Assembly (NCBI RefSeq): GCF_016865485.1
Contig: NZ_AP024452.1
Span: forward strand, 4,548,501 to 4,612,500
Length of the DNA stretch: 64,000 nt
From: Luteitalea sp. TBR-22
Lineage (GTDB): Bacteria > Acidobacteriota > Vicinamibacteria > Vicinamibacterales > Vicinamibacteraceae
Direction of reading: 5' to 3'
The position numbers were made by a program, and so were the translations under genes. The notes under the pieces are model-generated. The model saw only the letters and a program-made list of their open reading frames with translations. It made no database searches and had not been told where the DNA came from. This document shows positions 15,660 to 58,540 of the stretch, piece by piece. The stretch's first letter is position 1; the number at the start of each line of letters is the position of its first letter.

Positions 15660-17171
15660 TCAGGCCCCCAACAGCGCCGCGGCGCAGATGGCCGCACGCT
15701 CGCGACAGCCGACCACGGGAGCCAGCCCGGCCCCGGCCTGCACCTGCGCGCCGGCCTCGATCGCCGGCACGAGCAGATCGAGCTCGGGGCCACTGTCGGC
15801 GCCGGTCAGCGCCAGGCGGATCGGATGGAACAACGCGCGCCCCTTCTGCCCGGTCCGCTGCCGCACCTGCTGCGCGGCCTCCCGGAACGTCTCCCGCGTG
15901 AGGCGTGGACGGCCGCTCAACTCCTGCGCGAAGGCAACGACCACCTCGCGCCCGGCCCGGGCGGCCTCGGCGCCCTCCGCAGCCAGGTGCTCGACCGTCG
16001 CCGCTGGGCGAGGTGTCTCGAACACCGGGCGCAGCCGCTCCGGCGCGTCGGCCAGCTGGTCCACGGTTCCGGCGATCAGCGGCACGCAGGCGAGCAGGAA
16101 CGCGTCGAGGTCGGACTTGCCAGGCGCGGGTTCGCCGATCACGCCGGCGGCGCGCAGGTGCGGGACCAGGAGCGCCGCGATGCGTGACGGCTCGGCGGCC
16201 TTCACGTAATGCCGGTTCATCCAGGCGAGCTTGTCGGGATCGAACACGCCAGCACTCCGGGTCACGTCCTGCACGCGGAACCGGCGCGCCAGTTCCTCCA
16301 CGGGCACCAGTTCCTCGCCCTGGCCCGGCGACCAACCGAGCAGCGCGAGGTAGTTCACCAGGGCCTCCGGAAGGATGCCGCGCGCCCGGAACTCGCCGAC
16401 GCTCGACGCGCCGTGCCGCTTGGACAGCGGCGCGTGATCGGGCCCGAGCACGAGCGACAGGTGCGCAAACTGCGGCGGCGCCACGCCGAGCGCCTCGTAC
16501 AGCAGGCACTGCCGCGGCGTGTTGGGCACGTGATCCTCGCCACGCACCACCAGCGAGATCCGCATCTCCACATCGTCGACGACGACCGCGAAGTTGTAGG
16601 CGGGGAGGCCGTTCTGCCTGATGAGCACGAAGTCGCCGATCATGCCGATGTCGGTCGTGATCGGTCCGCGGACGAGATCGGTGAACGTGACGGCATCGCG
16701 GGCCGGCACGCGGAATCGAATCGCCGCGGGTTCACCAGCCTCGACACGCGCGCGGCTGGCCGCAGGGTCGAGTGCGCGGCAGGTGCCGGCGTACTGTGGC
16801 GTCCGGCCCTCGCGCAATGCGACCTCGCGCTGCGCCTCGAGATCGGCGGGCGAGCAGAAACAGTGGTAGGCGTGGCCGTCGGCCATCAGGCGCGCGGCGT
16901 ACCCGCGATAGTGATCGAGCCGCTCGGTCTGCCTGTAGGGGCCGAACGCGCCGCCCTTGTCGGGCCCCTCGTCCCAGTCCAGCCCAAGCCAGCGGAGGTC
17001 CTCGAGGATGCCGTCGGCCGACGTGACAGTGGAGCGAACCTCGTCGGTGTCCTCGAGACGCAGGACGAACGTGCCGCCCTGGCCGCGGGCGAGCAGCCAG
17101 TTGAAGAGCGCGGTGCGGGCGTTCCCGACGTGCAGGTGGCCTGTCGGGCTCGGAGCGAAGCGGACGCGCAT
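15660..17171 (-). CDS. gltX: Glutamyl-tRNA synthetase
   Basis: Class I aminoacyl-tRNA synthetase, 503 residues, charging tRNA-Glu (and tRNA-Gln in organisms using the transamidation route). The HIGH-type signature is in RFAPSPTGHLHVGNARTALF near the start, and the KMSKS-type loop appears as PLSKRHGASSVGEF near residue 240. The ATG at 17171 gives the family start. The frame remains open through a 7-bp tandem array for 48 more codons, but those encode only repeated PGAR peptides, so I exclude them. No Shine-Dalgarno sequence is visible because the array begins 12 bases upstream. Confidence 0.95.
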   Translation of the reverse strand: MRVRFAPSPTGHLHVGNARTALFNWLLARGQGGTFVLRLEDTDEVRSTVTSADGILEDLRWLGLDWDEGPDKGGAFGPYRQTERLDHYRGYAARLMADGHAYHCFCSPADLEAQREVALREGRTPQYAGTCRALDPAASRARVEAGEPAAIRFRVPARDAVTFTDLVRGPITTDIGMIGDFVLIRQNGLPAYNFAVVVDDVEMRISLVVRGEDHVPNTPRQCLLYEALGVAPPQFAHLSLVLGPDHAPLSKRHGASSVGEFRARGILPEALVNYLALLGWSPGQGEELVPVEELARRFRVQDVTRSAGVFDPDKLAWMNRHYVKAAEPSRIAALLVPHLRAAGVIGEPAPGKSDLDAFLLACVPLIAGTVDQLADAPERLRPVFETPRPAATVEHLAAEGAEAARAGREVVVAFAQELSGRPRLTRETFREAAQQVRQRTGQKGRALFHPIRLALTGADSGPELDLLVPAIEAGAQVQAGAGLAPVVGCRERAAICAAALLGA

Positions 17172-17183
17172 CGGGACATTATC

Positions 17184-17330
17184 GGGCACCGGGCACCGGG
17201 CACCGGGCACCAGGCACCGGGCGCCGGGCACCGGGCGCCGGGCACCGGGCACCAGGCACCGGGCGCCGGGCACCGGGCGCCGGGCACCGGGCACCGGGCG
17301 CTGGGCGCCGGGCACCGGGCACCAGGATCA
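17184..17330. repeat. GGGCACC 7-bp array with a 42-bp higher-order period
   Basis: Twenty consecutive 7-base units of the type GGGCACC, GGGCGCC, AGGCACC or GGGCGCT, plus one degenerate unit, with no indels. The unit types follow the pattern A A A A B C A C A A B C A C A A D C A A, which contains a six-unit (42-bp) higher-order repeat. The array lies in the 274-bp gap between gltX and the divergent gene at 17446 and sits in the gltX leader. Beyond it (17331-17445) the sequence is G-rich with no gene. Confidence 0.9.
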
Positions 17331-21263: not shown

Positions 21264-21411
21264 AATTTCAGAATTTCAGAATTTCAGAATTTCAGGATTT
21301 CAGGATTTCAGGAATCGCATTGGCTGCGCCTCATCAGCGACGGCCGGACATACAGCGACGCCATCCTCGAGTGAGGGAATGCTGAAAGGCTGACACTCTG
21401 CAATTCCGCAG
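21264..21411. repeat. AATTTCAG 8-bp array with facing CTGCAATTC arm
   Basis: Six 8-base units (four AATTTCAG, two GATTTCAG) fill 21264-21311, starting two bases after the stop of the membrane protein. About 85 bases later CTGCAATTCCGCAG (21398-21411) reads in the opposite sense. The element fills the whole gap between two convergent genes, so it may also serve as a shared 3' structure. Confidence 0.75.
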
Positions 21412-25394: not shown

Positions 25395-26060
25395 GGCAAT
25401 TTGAGATTTGAAATTCGAAATTGGCAAGGGCTTGGCGGCGTGCGCCGCCTTCGCCCTCGAGGTCACGACAGCTTCGCCACGGATGGTCGGCTCGCGGATC
25501 GGGCGATCGCGGACACAACCTGCGCCACTTCCTTGGCTTCGGGACCGAGCTTCGACCATTCTTCGTCGCGCAGCAGCCCTGCCTCTCGCCCCAGGCGCAG
25601 CCAGTACTGCATCTCGCGGGCCTCCTTGGTGGCAATCGCCACCTTGGACGCAAAGTCGGCGCGGGATTGCGCTGCCGTCGCCTCCTCGAGATTCGCTCCT
25701 ATGGACGTGGCGGCGCGAATCATCTGACGCAGGACGACCTCCCTCACCATCCGCACGTAGGACGGGTCGTGGCGAAGGCGTGCCACACGCAGTGCCAGCC
25801 GAAACGCCCGCTCGTGAATCTCGCGTCGCATGGCGACCGGCGGTGCACGAACGGCGCCAGGGATTACTGCTGGCCGCCGCGCCAGAAACGGGCGGCGGCC
25901 CCCACCGTGGCGCAGATACTGCGCTCGTGGGGGCAATTCGAGATTCGAAACTTGAGATTGATCGGCGGCCGGCCTGTCGGCCCTGCCGCTCGACGCATCT
26001 CGCGGGGCGGCGGCGGAGCCGCGCCCCTCGTGAATCTCAAATTTCAAATTTCAAATTGCC
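25395..26060. mobile_element. Repeat-bounded segment carrying a four-helix-bundle gene
   Basis: Inverted 23-bp arms bound this 666-bp segment: 25395-25417 on the plus strand and 26038-26060 on the minus strand both read [20 protein letters not shown], followed by TYG, with only two differences. A third, diverged arm with GGCAATTCGAGATTCG is at 25932-25960. The arms are AT-rich in GC-rich surroundings. The segment lies between radA and alr, and the right arm forms the last codons and stop of alr. Mobility is inferred from the structure; no transposase or target-site duplication is evident. Confidence 0.5.
25463..25831 (-). CDS. Four-helix-bundle protein (S23/Avd-like family)
   Basis: 122 residues from the ATG at 25831. 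The protein is helical throughout. It shows the pattern of the bacterial four-helix-bundle family once called S23 or IVP: REVVLRQMIRAATSIGANLEEATAAQSRADF, then [25 protein letters not shown]. Relatives occur as intervening sequences in 23S rRNA genes and as accessory variability determinants beside retroelements; most stand alone with unknown function. It is transcribed in the same direction as alr and radA. The frame is open further upstream to 26047 but with low-complexity sequence that I exclude. Confidence 0.85.
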   Translation of the reverse strand: MRREIHERAFRLALRVARLRHDPSYVRMVREVVLRQMIRAATSIGANLEEATAAQSRADFASKVAIATKEAREMQYWLRLGREAGLLRDEEWSKLGPEAKEVAQVVSAIARSASRPSVAKLS

Positions 26061-29991: not shown

Positions 29992-30558
29992 TCACACCTG
30001 CGGTGACGCGTTGAAGACCTGCATGGTCTTCTCGATGCCATCGCGTGCGAAGCACTCGACGGCGTCGGCGGCCCTCACGACCGCCTCGTCGATGGCCGGA
30101 CGGATGTCCGGCGGAATCATCGACAGGACGTGATCGGCCAGGTCACGCCGCGGATCCCCGCGGCCCACCCCGATGCGGAGCCGAGCGAACTGCTCCGTGC
30201 CGAGCACGCCGATGATCGACTTGAGGCCGTTGTGGCCCCCGGCCGATCCCGACGGCCTCGCCCGCAGCTGTCCTGCCGGCAAGGCCACCTCGTCGACGAC
30301 CACGATCAGGTCCTCGACGGGAATCTTGAAGAACCGCAGCAGGTCGCCGACGGCGCCCCCACTGCGATTCATGAACGTCAGTGGCTTGACGAGCAACAGG
30401 CCCGCCCCCCGCACCCGCGCCATCAGCGCGTCGGCCGGGGCGCTCTCGAACGCCACCCCGTGCCGCGCCGCCAGCGCGTCCACCGTCATGAAGCCGACGT
30501 TGTGCAGGGTGTCCCGGTACTTCGGACCGGGATTGCCGAGGCCAACGACCAGCTTCAC
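29992..30558 (-). CDS. pth: Peptidyl-tRNA hydrolase
   Basis: 188 residues from a GTG start. Frees tRNA from peptidyl-tRNA dropped by the ribosome. Signatures are VGLGNPGPKYRDTLHNVGF (catalytic histidine in LHN), FMNRSGGAV, VVVDEVALPAGQ (catalytic aspartate) and GGHNGLKSI. It sits between rplY and rpsF in the common prs-rplY-pth-rpsF order, separated from rplY by an AATT-type repeat element. Confidence 0.95.
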   Translation of the reverse strand: MKLVVGLGNPGPKYRDTLHNVGFMTVDALAARHGVAFESAPADALMARVRGAGLLLVKPLTFMNRSGGAVGDLLRFFKIPVEDLIVVVDEVALPAGQLRARPSGSAGGHNGLKSIIGVLGTEQFARLRIGVGRGDPRRDLADHVLSMIPPDIRPAIDEAVVRAADAVECFARDGIEKTMQVFNASPQV

Positions 30559-30570
30559 GAGCGCATCCCG

Positions 30571-30669
30571 AAAATTCCAGAAGTTCAGAATGTCAAAATC
30601 TCAACACCAACGACGCGCTTCGCAGCGCACTGGAGGTGGTGCAATTCTGCAATCCTCAATTCTGCAATT
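30571..30669. repeat. AATT-type facing-arm element between rplY and pth
   Basis: A left arm of CAGAAGTTCAGAATGTCA type (30571-30603) faces a right arm of TGCAATTCTGCAATCC and TCAATTCTGCAATTG (30640-30669), with about 36 GC-rich bases between. Read in complement, the right arm is CAGAATTG repeated, so the arms are imperfect inverted repeats. It fills almost the whole 113-bp gap. Confidence 0.7.
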
Positions 30670-30671
30670 GC

Positions 30672-31304
30672 CTACTTGTCCTTGTCCGTCTTGCCCTTCT
30701 TGGCGACCTCGGGTTCGGCAGTCGCCGCGCCCGCGGCCTCGTCGCTGCCGACGCGAGCGCCGACCACGTGGACGATCATCATGTCGGCCGAGCTGACCGG
30801 CGTCCACTTCTGGCCAGCCGCCACGTCCTTCACGTGCACGCCGTCGCCGATCATCATGCCGGTCACGTCGATGTCGATGTGCTCGGGGATCTCGGTCGGC
30901 AGGCTCTCGACCTCGATCTCGCGGTGCACGAAGTCGAGCACGCCGCCCTGCACCTTCACGCCCTTCGGCTCGCCGTGCAGGCGGACCGCCACCTTCACCT
31001 GGACCTTCTTCTCCAGGTTGACGCGGTAGAAGTCGGCGTGGAGCAGCTGGTGGGTGACCGGCTGCAGCAGGAAGTCCTTCACGATGACCTTGGTCGTCGT
31101 GCCGTCGACCTTGAGGTCGATCAGGGTGTTGAGGCCGGCCTCCGAGTGCAGGAGCCGCGACAGCTCCTTGGGGCTCACGGCGACGGCCTGCGCGGGCTGG
31201 CTGCCACCGTAGACGACGGCGGGAATCTGGCCCTTCACACGGAGGCGGCGGGCTTCGTTCTTGCCGCGCGACTCGCGCACGACGGCTTCGAGGGTCGTAT
31301 CCAT
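30672..31304 (-). CDS. rplY: 50S ribosomal protein L25/general stress protein Ctc
   Basis: 210 residues, the long TL5/CTC form that binds 5S rRNA. The N-terminal L25 domain contains ESRGKNEARRLRVKGQIPAVVYGG and the RVNLEKKVQVKVAVRLHGEPKGVK region. The C-terminal beta domain ends with a lysine-rich tail (VAKKGKTDKDK). The ATG at 31304 gives the standard MDTTLEAVVRES start. It is downstream of prs, as in many genomes. Confidence 0.94.
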   Translation of the reverse strand: MDTTLEAVVRESRGKNEARRLRVKGQIPAVVYGGSQPAQAVAVSPKELSRLLHSEAGLNTLIDLKVDGTTTKVIVKDFLLQPVTHQLLHADFYRVNLEKKVQVKVAVRLHGEPKGVKVQGGVLDFVHREIEVESLPTEIPEHIDIDVTGMMIGDGVHVKDVAAGQKWTPVSSADMMIVHVVGARVGSDEAAGAATAEPEVAKKGKTDKDK

Positions 31305-31385
31305 TTCTGTCTCCTACTCTCGATCGGTCCGCTTGCGCCCGCGGCGCGGGCTTCGGCGGGACGGACCTACCATTGGTGAACCACT

Positions 31386-31490
31386 CAATTTCAGAATTTC
31401 AGAATTTCAGAAAGTTCGGAATTTCATGCACAGGGTCTCGGCTCGACGGGCCGACGTGGTCCTGCAATTCTGAACGTCTGCAATTCTGCA
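31386..31490. repeat. AATTTCAG/TGCAATTCTG facing-arm element between prs and rplY
   Basis: Three exact AATTTCAG units and degenerate ones occupy 31387-31425. TGCAATTCTG occurs twice at 31463-31490 in the opposite sense. About 35 GC-rich bases lie between. It has the same build as the elements at 21264 and 30571, and occupies most of the 202-bp gap. Confidence 0.75.
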
Positions 31491-31506
31491 CTTACTGAAG
31501 TTCCCT

Positions 31507-32454
31507 TCACACGAACAACGACGAGACCGAGGTCTCCTCGTGGATGCTGCGGATGGCCTGGCCCAGCAGCCGGGCCACCGTCAGGCACTCGATCTTGCTC
31601 GAGGAGGCGCAGGCCTCGCTCTGCGGGATCGTGTTGGTGACCACCAGCTTCTCGATCGGCGACTGCTCGATCCGCTCGATGGCCGGCCCCGACAGCACGC
31701 CGTGCACCGCACAGGCGATGATGCGCTCGGCGCCGTTGGCCTTGAGCGCCTGCGCCGCCTTCACGATCGTGCCCGCCGTGTCGATGATGTCGTCCTGCAG
31801 CACGCACGTGCGGCCGCGGACGTCGCCAATCACGTTCATCACCTCGGCGGCCCCCGTCTCCGAGCTGCGCCGCTTGTCGATGATCGCCAGGTCGGCGCCG
31901 ACGCGCTTGGCGTAGGCCCGCGCCCGCTCCGCGCCGCCGGCGTCGGGCGAGACCACCGTCACGTTCGGGAACTTCTGCCGCGCCAGGTAGTCGATGATCA
32001 CCGGCGCCGCGAAGAGGTGGTCGACCGGGATGTCGAAGAACCCCTGAATCTGGGCCTTGTGCAGGTCCATCGTCAGGATGCGATTGGCCCCGGCGGCGCT
32101 GAGCAGGTTGGCCACCAGCTTGGCCGAGATCGGCACGCGGGGCTTGTCCTTGCGGTCCTGCCGCGCGTAGCCGTAGTACGGAATCACCGCCGTGATGCGC
32201 GAGGCCGACGATCGCCGGAACGCGTCGATCATGACGCACAGTTCCATGATGTTGGCGTCGACCGGCCGCGACGTCGGCTGCACGATGAAGACGTCGGTGC
32301 CCCGGATGTTCTCGTCGATCTGGAACGAGACCTCGGTGTCGGGGAACCGCTGCAGGCGAGCCTGCCCCGGCGCCACGCACAGGAACTCGGCAATCTCCTG
32401 CGCGAGTTGTGGGTGGGCACTGCCCGAGAACACCTTCAAGTTCGATCGCGCCAT
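31507..32454 (-). CDS. prs: Ribose-phosphate pyrophosphokinase
   Basis: 315 residues, normal length. Makes PRPP from ribose 5-phosphate and ATP for nucleotide, histidine and tryptophan synthesis. Motifs are KVFSGSAHPQLAQEIA, PYYGYARQDRKDKPRVPISAKL, DLHKAQIQGFFDIPVDHL and the PRPP loop DIIDTAGTI. The ATG at 32454 fits family starts; the open frame continues 22 codons into the tRNA-Gln flank. It follows tRNA-Gln and ispE in the common ispE-prs order. Confidence 0.96.
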   Translation of the reverse strand: MARSNLKVFSGSAHPQLAQEIAEFLCVAPGQARLQRFPDTEVSFQIDENIRGTDVFIVQPTSRPVDANIMELCVMIDAFRRSSASRITAVIPYYGYARQDRKDKPRVPISAKLVANLLSAAGANRILTMDLHKAQIQGFFDIPVDHLFAAPVIIDYLARQKFPNVTVVSPDAGGAERARAYAKRVGADLAIIDKRRSSETGAAEVMNVIGDVRGRTCVLQDDIIDTAGTIVKAAQALKANGAERIIACAVHGVLSGPAIERIEQSPIEKLVVTNTIPQSEACASSSKIECLTVARLLGQAIRSIHEETSVSSLFV

Positions 32455-32505
32455 CGCCGTCCGTCGAAGTCCCTGCTGCCGATCACTGCCGCGCCCGCGC
32501 CTGCC

Positions 32506-32562
32506 CTTCCGGCCGGCCAACTCCCCACTCGGGAACTGGCTGGGGCGGAAGGATTCGAACCT
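32506..32562 (-). pseudogene. Duplicated 3' end of tRNA-Gln
   Basis: A 57-bp segment at 32506-32562 repeats 32601-32657 with three mismatches, at an exact offset of 95 bases. It contains the tRNA-Gln CCA, acceptor 3' strand and most of the T arm, plus 31 bases of downstream flank. The anticodon and D arms are missing, so it is a tRNA fragment and not a gene. It lies just upstream of the prs start. Confidence 0.75.
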
Positions 32563-32631
32563 GCGCCGACGCGACAGGCGTCGGTGCGTGACCCAGAAAC
32601 CTTCCGGCCGGCCAGTTCCCCGCTCGGGAAC

Positions 32632-32706
32632 TGGCTGGGGCGGAAGGATTCGAACCTTCGAATGCGGGATTCAAAGTCCCGTGCCTTACCGCTTGGCGAC
32701 GCCCCA
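32632..32706 (-). tRNA. tRNA-Gln (TTG)
   Basis: 75 bases with an encoded CCA. Acceptor stem TGGGGCG/CGCCCCA, anticodon loop CTTTGAA (anticodon TTG), T loop TTCGAAT. It lies between ispE and prs on the same strand. A truncated second copy of its 3' end follows 95 bases downstream. Confidence 0.96.
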
Positions 32707-58065: not shown

Positions 58066-58237
58066 GCGTGTAGGTCGCCGCGCCGCGGCGGAGGTGGCGC
58101 TTGTGAAAAGTCGCGCAAGCGTGGCCGTGCGTGCCCATCACGCGCGCCCCCGCTGTCGGTCCCGCCGGCGCCTGCCGCAGGCGGGGCTCGATCCCGTAGA
58201 TGCTAGCCCGCTTACGCACTCATCTGCAATGCATTCC

Positions 58238-58269
58238 GGGAGTCGGGAGTCGGGAGTCGGGAGTCGGGA
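58238..58269. repeat. GGGAGTC 7-bp tandem array
   Basis: Four exact GGGAGTC units and a partial fifth, in the nuoA upstream gap. Confidence 0.85.
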
Positions 58270-58285
58270 ACCGCACGCAGACTCC

Positions 58286-58341
58286 GGGCACCGGCCAGCG
58301 GGCACCGGGTACCGGGCGGCGGGCACCGGGCAGCGGGCACC
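58286..58341. repeat. GGGCACC-type 7-bp tandem array
   Basis: Eight consecutive 7-base units: GGGCACC (four copies) alternating with GGCCAGC, GGGTACC, GGGCGGC and GGGCAGC. It uses the same unit as the array before gltX at 17184. Confidence 0.85.
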
Positions 58342-58453
58342 AGGAGGCCCGGAGCGCTGGCATCGCGGCAATGGGGGCCGGGCCCAGAGTCCGTCGCCAT
58401 GCCCGCCGAGCCCAACGCGCCGCTCTCTCGATGCTCTCAGAGCCCTGAGCCTC

Positions 58454-58495
58454 GAGCCTTGGGCCTTGGGCCTTGGGCCTTGGGCCTTGGGCCTG
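58454..58495. repeat. GGGCCTT 7-bp tandem array
   Basis: Six 7-base units: GAGCCTT, four exact GGGCCTT and GGGCCTG, followed by degenerate CTCGAGCC sequence. Confidence 0.85.
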
Positions 58496-58540
58496 ACGTG
58501 CGCCGGGAGCCTCGAGCCTCCACCCTCGAGCCGCCCGAGT

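Follow-up and report, generated by a model that had tools for sequence, protein, structure and literature searches.

The spacer between prs and rplY holds two short tandem arrays that face each other across a GC-rich core, and elements of the same build lie elsewhere in the surrounding DNA. What kind of element is this, and what accounts for its matched arms? We addressed these questions in the window, the whole 64,000-nucleotide stretch of DNA analyzed here (C1:4548501-4612500 of genome G000, a single contig of 6,468,984 bp). Coordinates below follow the numbering of the window.

The prs-rplY element and its family

The facing 8-bp arms that the first-pass annotation described at 31386 to 31490 are real, with AATTTCAG units starting at 31387 and TGCAATTC/TGCAATTCTG units running to 31490. 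Tandem Repeats Finder detected period 8 at both 31387 to 31426 and 31462 to 31490. The element is unstranded and consists of a left arm, (AATTTCAG)n, of period 8 with a decayed inner end (31386 to 31426), a GC-rich core whose minus-strand reading aligns with a diverged core consensus (31427 to 31461), and a right arm, (CTGCAATT)n, which faces the left arm and lies 16 bp from the prs stop codon (31462 to 31490). Both neighboring genes, prs (31507 to 32520; PF13793/PF14572) and rplY (30672 to 31304; PF01386/PF14693), are on the minus strand. On the opposite strand the right unit reads GAATTGCA, which differs from the left unit, GAATTTCA, at a single base in each unit; the inverted repeat formed by the two arms of the named copy is therefore near but not exact. 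The same build is also present at the two other places proposed for it. An ORF-less sister element occupies the rplY/pth spacer (30571 to 30669), 2 bp from the rplY stop codon and with one terminator-like minus-strand stem in its core; a second extends from stop codon to stop codon of two convergent genes (21264 to 21411), its right arm badly decayed. Neither is assigned to a strand. Rfam, run over the whole window at gathering scores, returned six tRNAs only. Two 61-nt copies that are 93% alike and 95 bp apart (32505 to 32565 and 32600 to 32660) were also noted; the latter overlaps a tRNA at 32635 to 32706, and the former may be a partial copy of the 3′ part of the tRNA.

The exact two-unit word GAATTTCAGAATTTCA has 18 matches in the 6.47-Mb genome, against none for a reversed control. 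These matches correspond to 12 sites, all of which were examined. At 11 of them an inverted partner is arranged inward with a score of 15 to 21, while reversed or complemented control arms scored 4 to 12; the twelfth (L004) has a weak partner in an outward arrangement (score 11, controls up to 8). The 12 sites thus support the view that inverted arms of 8-bp period form a repeated family. Arms standing singly and in random orientation, which had been named as evidence against this view, were absent for the GAATTTCAGAATTTCA unit, but partnerless arrays turned out to be common for other units, as described below.

Among the ten genomes searched, the octamer pattern was confined to one genus, with 18 matches in G000, 25 in G001, 12 in G004, and 1 in G002; there were none in G003, G005, G006, G007, G009, or G021. 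When 16.5 kb of the window was compared with six relatives, seven places in G001 gave alignments that cover 90 bp or more of the named element (71 to 80% identity), the best being the rplY-pth spacer and not the orthologous one. In the prs-rplY spacer itself, G001 has arms with an unrelated core, G004 has remnants, and G002 and G003 are without arms. In the rplY-pth spacer, G001 has 8-bp arms that enclose a different core, G004 has a 7-bp pair, and G002 and G003 have no arms; in the spacer orthologous to the 21264 element, G004 has arms around a different core, and G003 has no element. Copies of the element are dispersed, in that a given spacer is occupied in some congeners and unoccupied in others. 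The empty spacers are too diverged for exact boundaries, and a target-site duplication was not established from them. In G005, the prs-rplY spacer (L069, 2540 to 2684) has a different palindrome, GCAGGCGTTTAGGCCTGCC...GGCAGGCCTAAAGGCCTGC, in the orthologous position. We read the named feature as an ORF-less member of a family, found at the level of the genus, of dispersed elements that are short (about 80 to 150 bp) and palindromic; taken whole, with the dependence on IVP proteins set out below, this reading seems to us evenly balanced between right and wrong. The family build is best explained with (GAATTTCA)n and (TGAAATTC)n as the arms and, between them, a diverged CACCACCGCCAACC..TCGA..GGTTGGCGGTGGT palindrome of about 34 nt as the core.

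The first-pass annotation held that the cores differ and that the arms, not the core, define the family. Cores do differ at the same spacer in congeners, but they are related above chance: among 25 cores from three species, 44 of 300 pairs had z scores above 3, compared with 6 of 300 for doubly shuffled cores. These 25 were retained from 27 chosen by eye out of 42 rows, many of the other rows being the same element on the opposite strand; two strings were not located, and the core of the 21264-21411 element was excluded for its length. Core length was 30 to 37 nt in 19 of the 25, and recurrent words include CACCGCC and GCCAACC. The cores diverge fast yet appear to form one family.

RNA folding gave z scores of −2.8 to −8.1 for nine of ten copies besides the named one, the exception being L009 (−1.8). 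The named copy scored −4.2 on the plus strand and −1.8 on the transcribed strand. RNAalifold, applied to an alignment of 16 of the 25 cores, found no pairs and no consensus structure. This result, together with the poor fold of the transcribed strand of the named copy, leaves a conserved or selected RNA hairpin unsupported. Two terminator-like sites occur in 30400 to 32600, where 1.1 are expected; one of them, at 30613 to 30630, is in the core of the sister element, and the named element has none.

The octamer family is best explained as part of a wider class of facing 7- to 8-bp arrays in which the repeat word varies and the two arms match. Arm sequence does not define this wider class either, since the unit varies by locus and only the architecture is common. 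In sampled DNA, an inverted partner was clearly recognizable no more than 350 bp away for 17 of 68 arrays of period 7 or 8 in G000 and for 18 of 75 in G001; reversed controls gave 7 and 3 and complemented controls 4 and 0, respectively. With only a quarter to a third of the arrays paired within this distance, many arrays of other units are single or have a decayed or distant partner. The window itself contains further period-7 arrays, none of them assigned to a strand. A GGGCACC period-7 array (17180 to 17308) has no convincing facing partner (best score, 14 to 15) and belongs to the class by period only, and repeat detection placed GGGAGTC, GGGCACC, and GAGCCTT period-7 arrays in a single spacer (58235 to 58496). 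The 17180-17308 array overlaps the start of a predicted gene (15660 to 17315) and would there be translated as a repeat peptide. On an NPL-UPA2 contig (L209), five period-7 arrays with differing units lie within 3.7 kb, beside an IVP fragment.

The arrays are mostly intergenic (82% in G000 and 90% in G001, versus 9% and 13% of all bases). By the counts of a home-made gene finder, on which all these position figures rest, arrays occupied 10/26 and 13/36 convergent spacers of at least 60 bp in G000 and G001, respectively, 23/109 and 29/99 tandem spacers, and 8/46 and 8/38 divergent spacers. In tandem spacers, the median distance from the array to the upstream stop codon was 18 bp in G000 and 19 bp in G001, and 17 of 23 and 19 of 29 arrays, respectively, were nearer to that stop than to the start codon that follows.

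Matched arms around S23p/IVP genes

The same build surrounds a protein-coding gene in the window. The element at 25398 to 26058 has three unstranded period-7 arms around a PF05635 gene and a hairpin core. Repeat detection and the sequence itself identified an outer arm of AATTTGA type (25398 to 25427) and a third arm, (AATTTCA)n, that faces the other two (26034 to 26058); the second arm, approximately CAATTCGAGATTCGAAACTTGAGATTG, was recognized from the sequence beside the gene (25935 to 25958). Between the second and third arms lies a GC-rich hairpin core (25959 to 26033), which with these arms folds at −78.8 kcal/mol (z, −8.1). The 23S_rRNA_IVP (S23p, PF05635) domain is on the minus strand at 25514 to 25819 (68.3 bits versus a cut-off of 33.8), in an ORF at 25463 to 26047 for which the gene finder gave 25463 to 25831.

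G000 has six PF05635 matches, five of them above the cut-off. Each of these five genes is near facing arms, and the unit is different each time (GGGAGTC, GGCAGTC, GGCTCAG, AATTTGA, and ATGACTC). The sixth, weak match (L024) has no arms within 400 bp; it is enclosed by matched arms of about 95 bp that are 1.5 kb apart (score 71, versus 16 to 21 for eight control loci), so that all six matches lie between matched arms. The L024 arms (222 to 317 and 1767 to 1865) are nearly perfectly inverted, and more than 1 kb of the DNA that they enclose is unaligned with G004 here, as if extra DNA had been taken up. In G001, an IVP gene (L214) lies inside arms of GAATTTCA, the unit of the named element itself.

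The left 350-bp flank of each IVP locus was compared with the reverse complement of the right flank at loci from G000, its order, and other phyla. The input was 49 of 51 IVP loci (L208 and L209 were left out), of which 47 were kept; most PF05635 matches of the wider surveys lie outside this set. With the 95th percentile of mismatched pairs as the threshold, 37 of 47 loci reached or exceeded it in the complementarity of their own flanks, compared with 1 of 41 when the flanks were shifted 900 bp outward. These counts include two loci of nearly the same sequence (L030 and L194, 99%), and L024, whose arms lie beyond 350 bp, is scored as a miss. The median score was 24 for own pairs and 11 for mismatched pairs, and 25 of 47 loci reached the 99th percentile. 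Against the link, the flanks of 10 of the 47 loci fail, and no more than 23 of the 47 own pairs rank first in their row. At 17 plasmid loci, mostly cyanobacterial and taken from 29 records with an IVP match, 10 pass and none of the 17 shifted flanks do. The 5′ arm was purine-rich in 32 of 39 loci (kept from 40 chosen for clear arms).

On plasmids of Anabaena sp. 90 (L233), Pseudanabaena galeata (L235), and Picosynechococcus PCC 7003 (L242), IVP genes are found within CRISPR operons, twice between cas6 and cas4 and once between cas10 and cmr3; IVP genes in cas loci were reported earlier, as the available part of that study records (PMC3936711). At L230, an IVP gene lies between two ribonucleotide reductase genes. 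Derivation of ORF-less copies from IVP elements by internal deletion was considered and set aside: comparison of the internal ends of IVP elements with ORF-less cores gave weak likeness in two of four subterminal tests and none in the other two.

Nine IVP sites have the same neighboring DNA in two or three of G000, G001, and G004. IVP protein identity had a median of 57% between members of the same site (46 to 81%) and 30% between different sites (maximum, 61%), with overlapping ranges; these medians include two pairs from site F, whose G001 member (L216) was assigned by position and protein identity only. In 10 of 19 same-site pairs, those for which it was computed, dN/dS was 0.11 to 0.32, indicating that the IVP gene is kept by purifying selection. 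The arm unit, meanwhile, changes on both sides of the gene: one site is GTCATGA-type in G000 and GTCATTG in G001, and the radA-alr site has AATTTGA in G000 and GAATTTCA in G001. Over 16 pairs, with site F and single-species sites excluded, the median normalized arm match was 0.56 within an element, a figure favored by the choice of arms through that same alignment, versus 0.42 for left arms and 0.32 for right arms between species. In the G000-G004 pair of site D, one of the 16, the match between the left arms of G000 and G004 is better than that between left and right arms inside either element. These sites provide a natural case in which two inverted arms evolve together while the enclosed gene is conserved. 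Since the IVP genes lie at shared sites in congeners, no IVP copy was seen moving. In a family-mate, the radA-alr site (L229, G005:C8:95718-100950) spans about 5.2 kb rather than 0.7 kb, which would suit an insertion hot spot.

Arrays, IVP genes, and rival explanations

PF05635 was found in 30 of 40 relatives and, across the phylum, in 62 of 119 genomes. We sampled 621,095 bp from 30 IVP-positive genomes and 670,983 bp from 27 IVP-negative genomes and found 59 period-7/8 arrays in the former and 3 in the latter. At least one array was present in 19 of 30 IVP-positive genomes and 2 of 27 IVP-negative genomes (Fisher, 1.9e-5); 11 of the 30 positive genomes had no array in the DNA sampled. For genomes with at least 10 kb sampled, the counts were 16 of 23 and 2 of 26, and IVP count and array density were correlated (Spearman, 0.73). 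Three runs of order-1 Markov sequence predicted 2.7 arrays in the positive set and 1.7 in the negative set, which places the IVP-negative genomes at chance level. Periods 5, 10, 11, and 13 were near zero. Kinship was handled solely by contrasts within the three families sampled with both kinds of genome, and each of these families shows the same tendency (with versus without IVP, 9 arrays in 80 kb versus 0 in 26 kb in f10, 2 in 40 kb versus 0 in 38 kb in f23, and 2 in 5 kb versus 2 in 80 kb in f4). Further, the arm units of 14 IVP loci of G000 and G001 resembled the arrays of their own genome more than those of the congener (Wilcoxon, 0.0009) or of other genomes (0.0002), the window's own IVP arms having been removed from the arrays. 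The same architecture therefore brackets PF05635 genes in several phyla and, in the sampled genomes, is rarely seen without such genes. The link between arrays and IVP genes is a correlation, and a third cause could underlie both.

The strongest rival remains a purely mutational origin, in which strand slippage at 7 to 8 nt and template switching at palindromes make the matched arrays in whatever spacer, and IVP genes merely reside in spacers of this kind. We consider this unlikely, though it deserves serious attention: the arms match point by point at several loci and change together, the unit differs between loci, and no conserved RNA fold was found, all as such a process would produce. It fits poorly with the chance-level count (3 arrays in 671 kb) in IVP-negative relatives of similar GC content and the same order or phylum and with the near absence of periods 5, 10, 11, and 13. 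Nor does slippage alone give a core consensus across unrelated sites or presence and absence at orthologous spacers. A role useful to the host at 3′ ends, with the elements acting as bidirectional terminators, mRNA 3′ stabilizers, or Rho-related signals behind stop codons, would explain their position 18 to 19 bp (median) behind stops in tandem spacers, their highest frequency in convergent spacers (10/26 and 13/36), the folding of nine of ten copies besides the named one (z, −2.8 to −8.1), and the location of one of the region's two terminator-like sites in the core of the 30571-30669 sister. Arrays also lie in divergent spacers (8/46 and 8/38), however; the named element lacks a terminator-like site, the region has two against 1.1 expected, and congeners without the element at prs-rplY and rplY-pth have these genes intact. 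On balance we find such a role improbable.

Mobilization by a Y1 (PF01797) transposase, as for REPIN/RAYT-type elements, would suit paired, intergenic elements of about 100 bp, and PF01797 was found in all 11 IVP-positive array-bearing genomes searched. It was also found in four of nine IVP-negative genomes, including G013, G024, and G028, in which no array was seen, and G000 has just two matches, low but above the cut-off (best E, 1.3e-5). The presence of this transposase thus does not discriminate array-bearing from array-free genomes, and we rejected it as the helper. REP units are conserved in sequence, whereas the unit here differs between loci of the class, though it is common within the AATTTCAG family. 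With neither a Y1 gene where, and only where, there are arrays nor a sequence-conserved unit across copies, this origin is very doubtful. Spread by reverse transcription is brought to mind by the resemblance of PF05635 to Avd of diversity-generating retroelements, according to the part of PMC10053308 that was available. The reverse transcriptase that defines those systems has no PF00078 match in G000, nor in G001, G004, and seven of eight other array-bearing genomes; as this helper was not found in 10 of the 11 array-bearing genomes searched, the reading is largely refuted and we give it almost no weight.

Known systems and a proposed mechanism

ORF-less forms of rRNA IVSs exist. The 23S rRNA IVSs of Coxiella, Leptospira, and Salmonella resemble the class described here in having a terminal inverted stem, an S23p/PF05635 ORF inside, tandem heptamers (in the case of Coxiella), and both ORF-bearing and ORF-less forms. 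In the accessible portion of PMC4990558, the rRNA IVS is described as a hairpin insert, with an S23p ORF in some species, whose stem is cut by RNase III; that of Coxiella has a terminal 28-bp stem and up to three tandem heptamers upstream of the S23p ORF. The pentameric structure of S23p/IVP proteins has been solved, and the same source describes these proteins as lacking a known function (PMC4990558). Unlike IVSs, the copies here lie between protein genes, and the named copy, in the prs-rplY spacer and thus outside rRNA, is by membership not an IVS. Its complementary termini are predicted to form a stem, as in an IVS (z, −4.2 on the plus strand and −1.8 on the transcribed strand); the S23p/IVP ORF is absent from it but present in the 25398-26058 element and inside the GAATTTCA arms of G001. 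RNase III excision belongs to the IVS; for the elements here, no conserved fold was found.

Facing arrays have precedents outside rRNA. In Xanthomonas, GGGAATC heptamers form convergent facing pairs, 70 in Xcc and 75 in Xac, mostly intergenic and near the ends of ORFs, as described in the available text of PMC4692102; that text contains no mention of IVP and 0 occurrences of "four helix." An IVP protein whose structure is known (2gsc, XCC0516; E, 1.6e-41) occurs in X. campestris. The Xanthomonas arrays are like ours in being convergent pairs of short, tandem, intergenic arrays. They differ in having one G-rich 7-nt unit (GGGANTN), studied as a quadruplex, whereas the named family is 8-nt and AT-rich and the class has many units; G-rich 7-nt units do occur elsewhere in G000. 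The STRR are heptamer repeats of cyanobacteria. They and the TAACTGA repeats of Beggiatoaceae are intergenic 7-nt arrays as well, but are described, in the portion of PMC4679880 at hand, as direct, with one indirect case in Beggiatoa, in contrast to the facing class here. On Nostoc and Calothrix plasmids, IVP genes lie between matched arrays. As far as the available parts of these papers go, reports of heptamer arrays are scattered and name no cause (PMC4692102, PMC4679880). MITEs and REPINs share with the present class its short, palindromic, intergenic, dispersed, and ORF-less nature; the class is unlike them in lacking a conserved terminal sequence and an assigned transposase. Earlier papers have described both the facing heptamers of Xanthomonas and the heptamers within a single rRNA IVS, that of Coxiella. 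A search of the open-access literature, with subscription papers and preprints outside it, found no paper linking IVP genes with facing arrays.

The explanation that we prefer, although we put it no higher than an even chance, is that the named feature is a hairpin element of IVS-like type, with no ORF of its own and dependent on IVP supplied in trans. The element would work like a 23S rRNA IVS, as a parasitic hairpin with an IVP-coding form of about 650 bp and an ORF-less form of about 100 bp. IVP-coding copies would supply the protein, which may recognize the paired or hairpin arms by their shape and periodicity and not by their sequence, and which could in trans help ORF-less copies to arise or spread, preferentially just behind stop codons. 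Arms paired in RNA might then be cut, as those of rRNA IVSs are by RNase III, so that neighboring genes tolerate the elements. The arms would lengthen by slippage of whole units, and copying between the arms would maintain their likeness. What the DNA shows is the architecture, the dispersal, the filled and empty sites, the link to IVP genes, the selection on IVP, and the joint change of the arms; the steps themselves, whether they concern an activity of the IVP protein, cleavage of RNA at these sites, or copying from arm to arm, are inferred.

The parsimonious view is a single class of hairpin element that includes coding and ORF-less forms, in rRNA as well as outside it, and whose likely trans factor is IVP. 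More tentatively, and with doubt prevailing, PF05635 proteins may be the trans-acting factor of a single bacteria-wide, sequence-agnostic hairpin system that both makes and keeps matched facing arrays of 7- to 8-nt words. If this is true, the heptamers of cyanobacteria and Xanthomonas, the 23S rRNA IVSs, and the AT-rich octamer pairs of G000 would have one cause, and a protein family with a crystal structure but no known role would have a function. If arrays occur only where there are IVP genes, and these genes lie between matched arms, the role of the IVP proteins and the cause of the heptamer arrays come down to a single question that can be tested.
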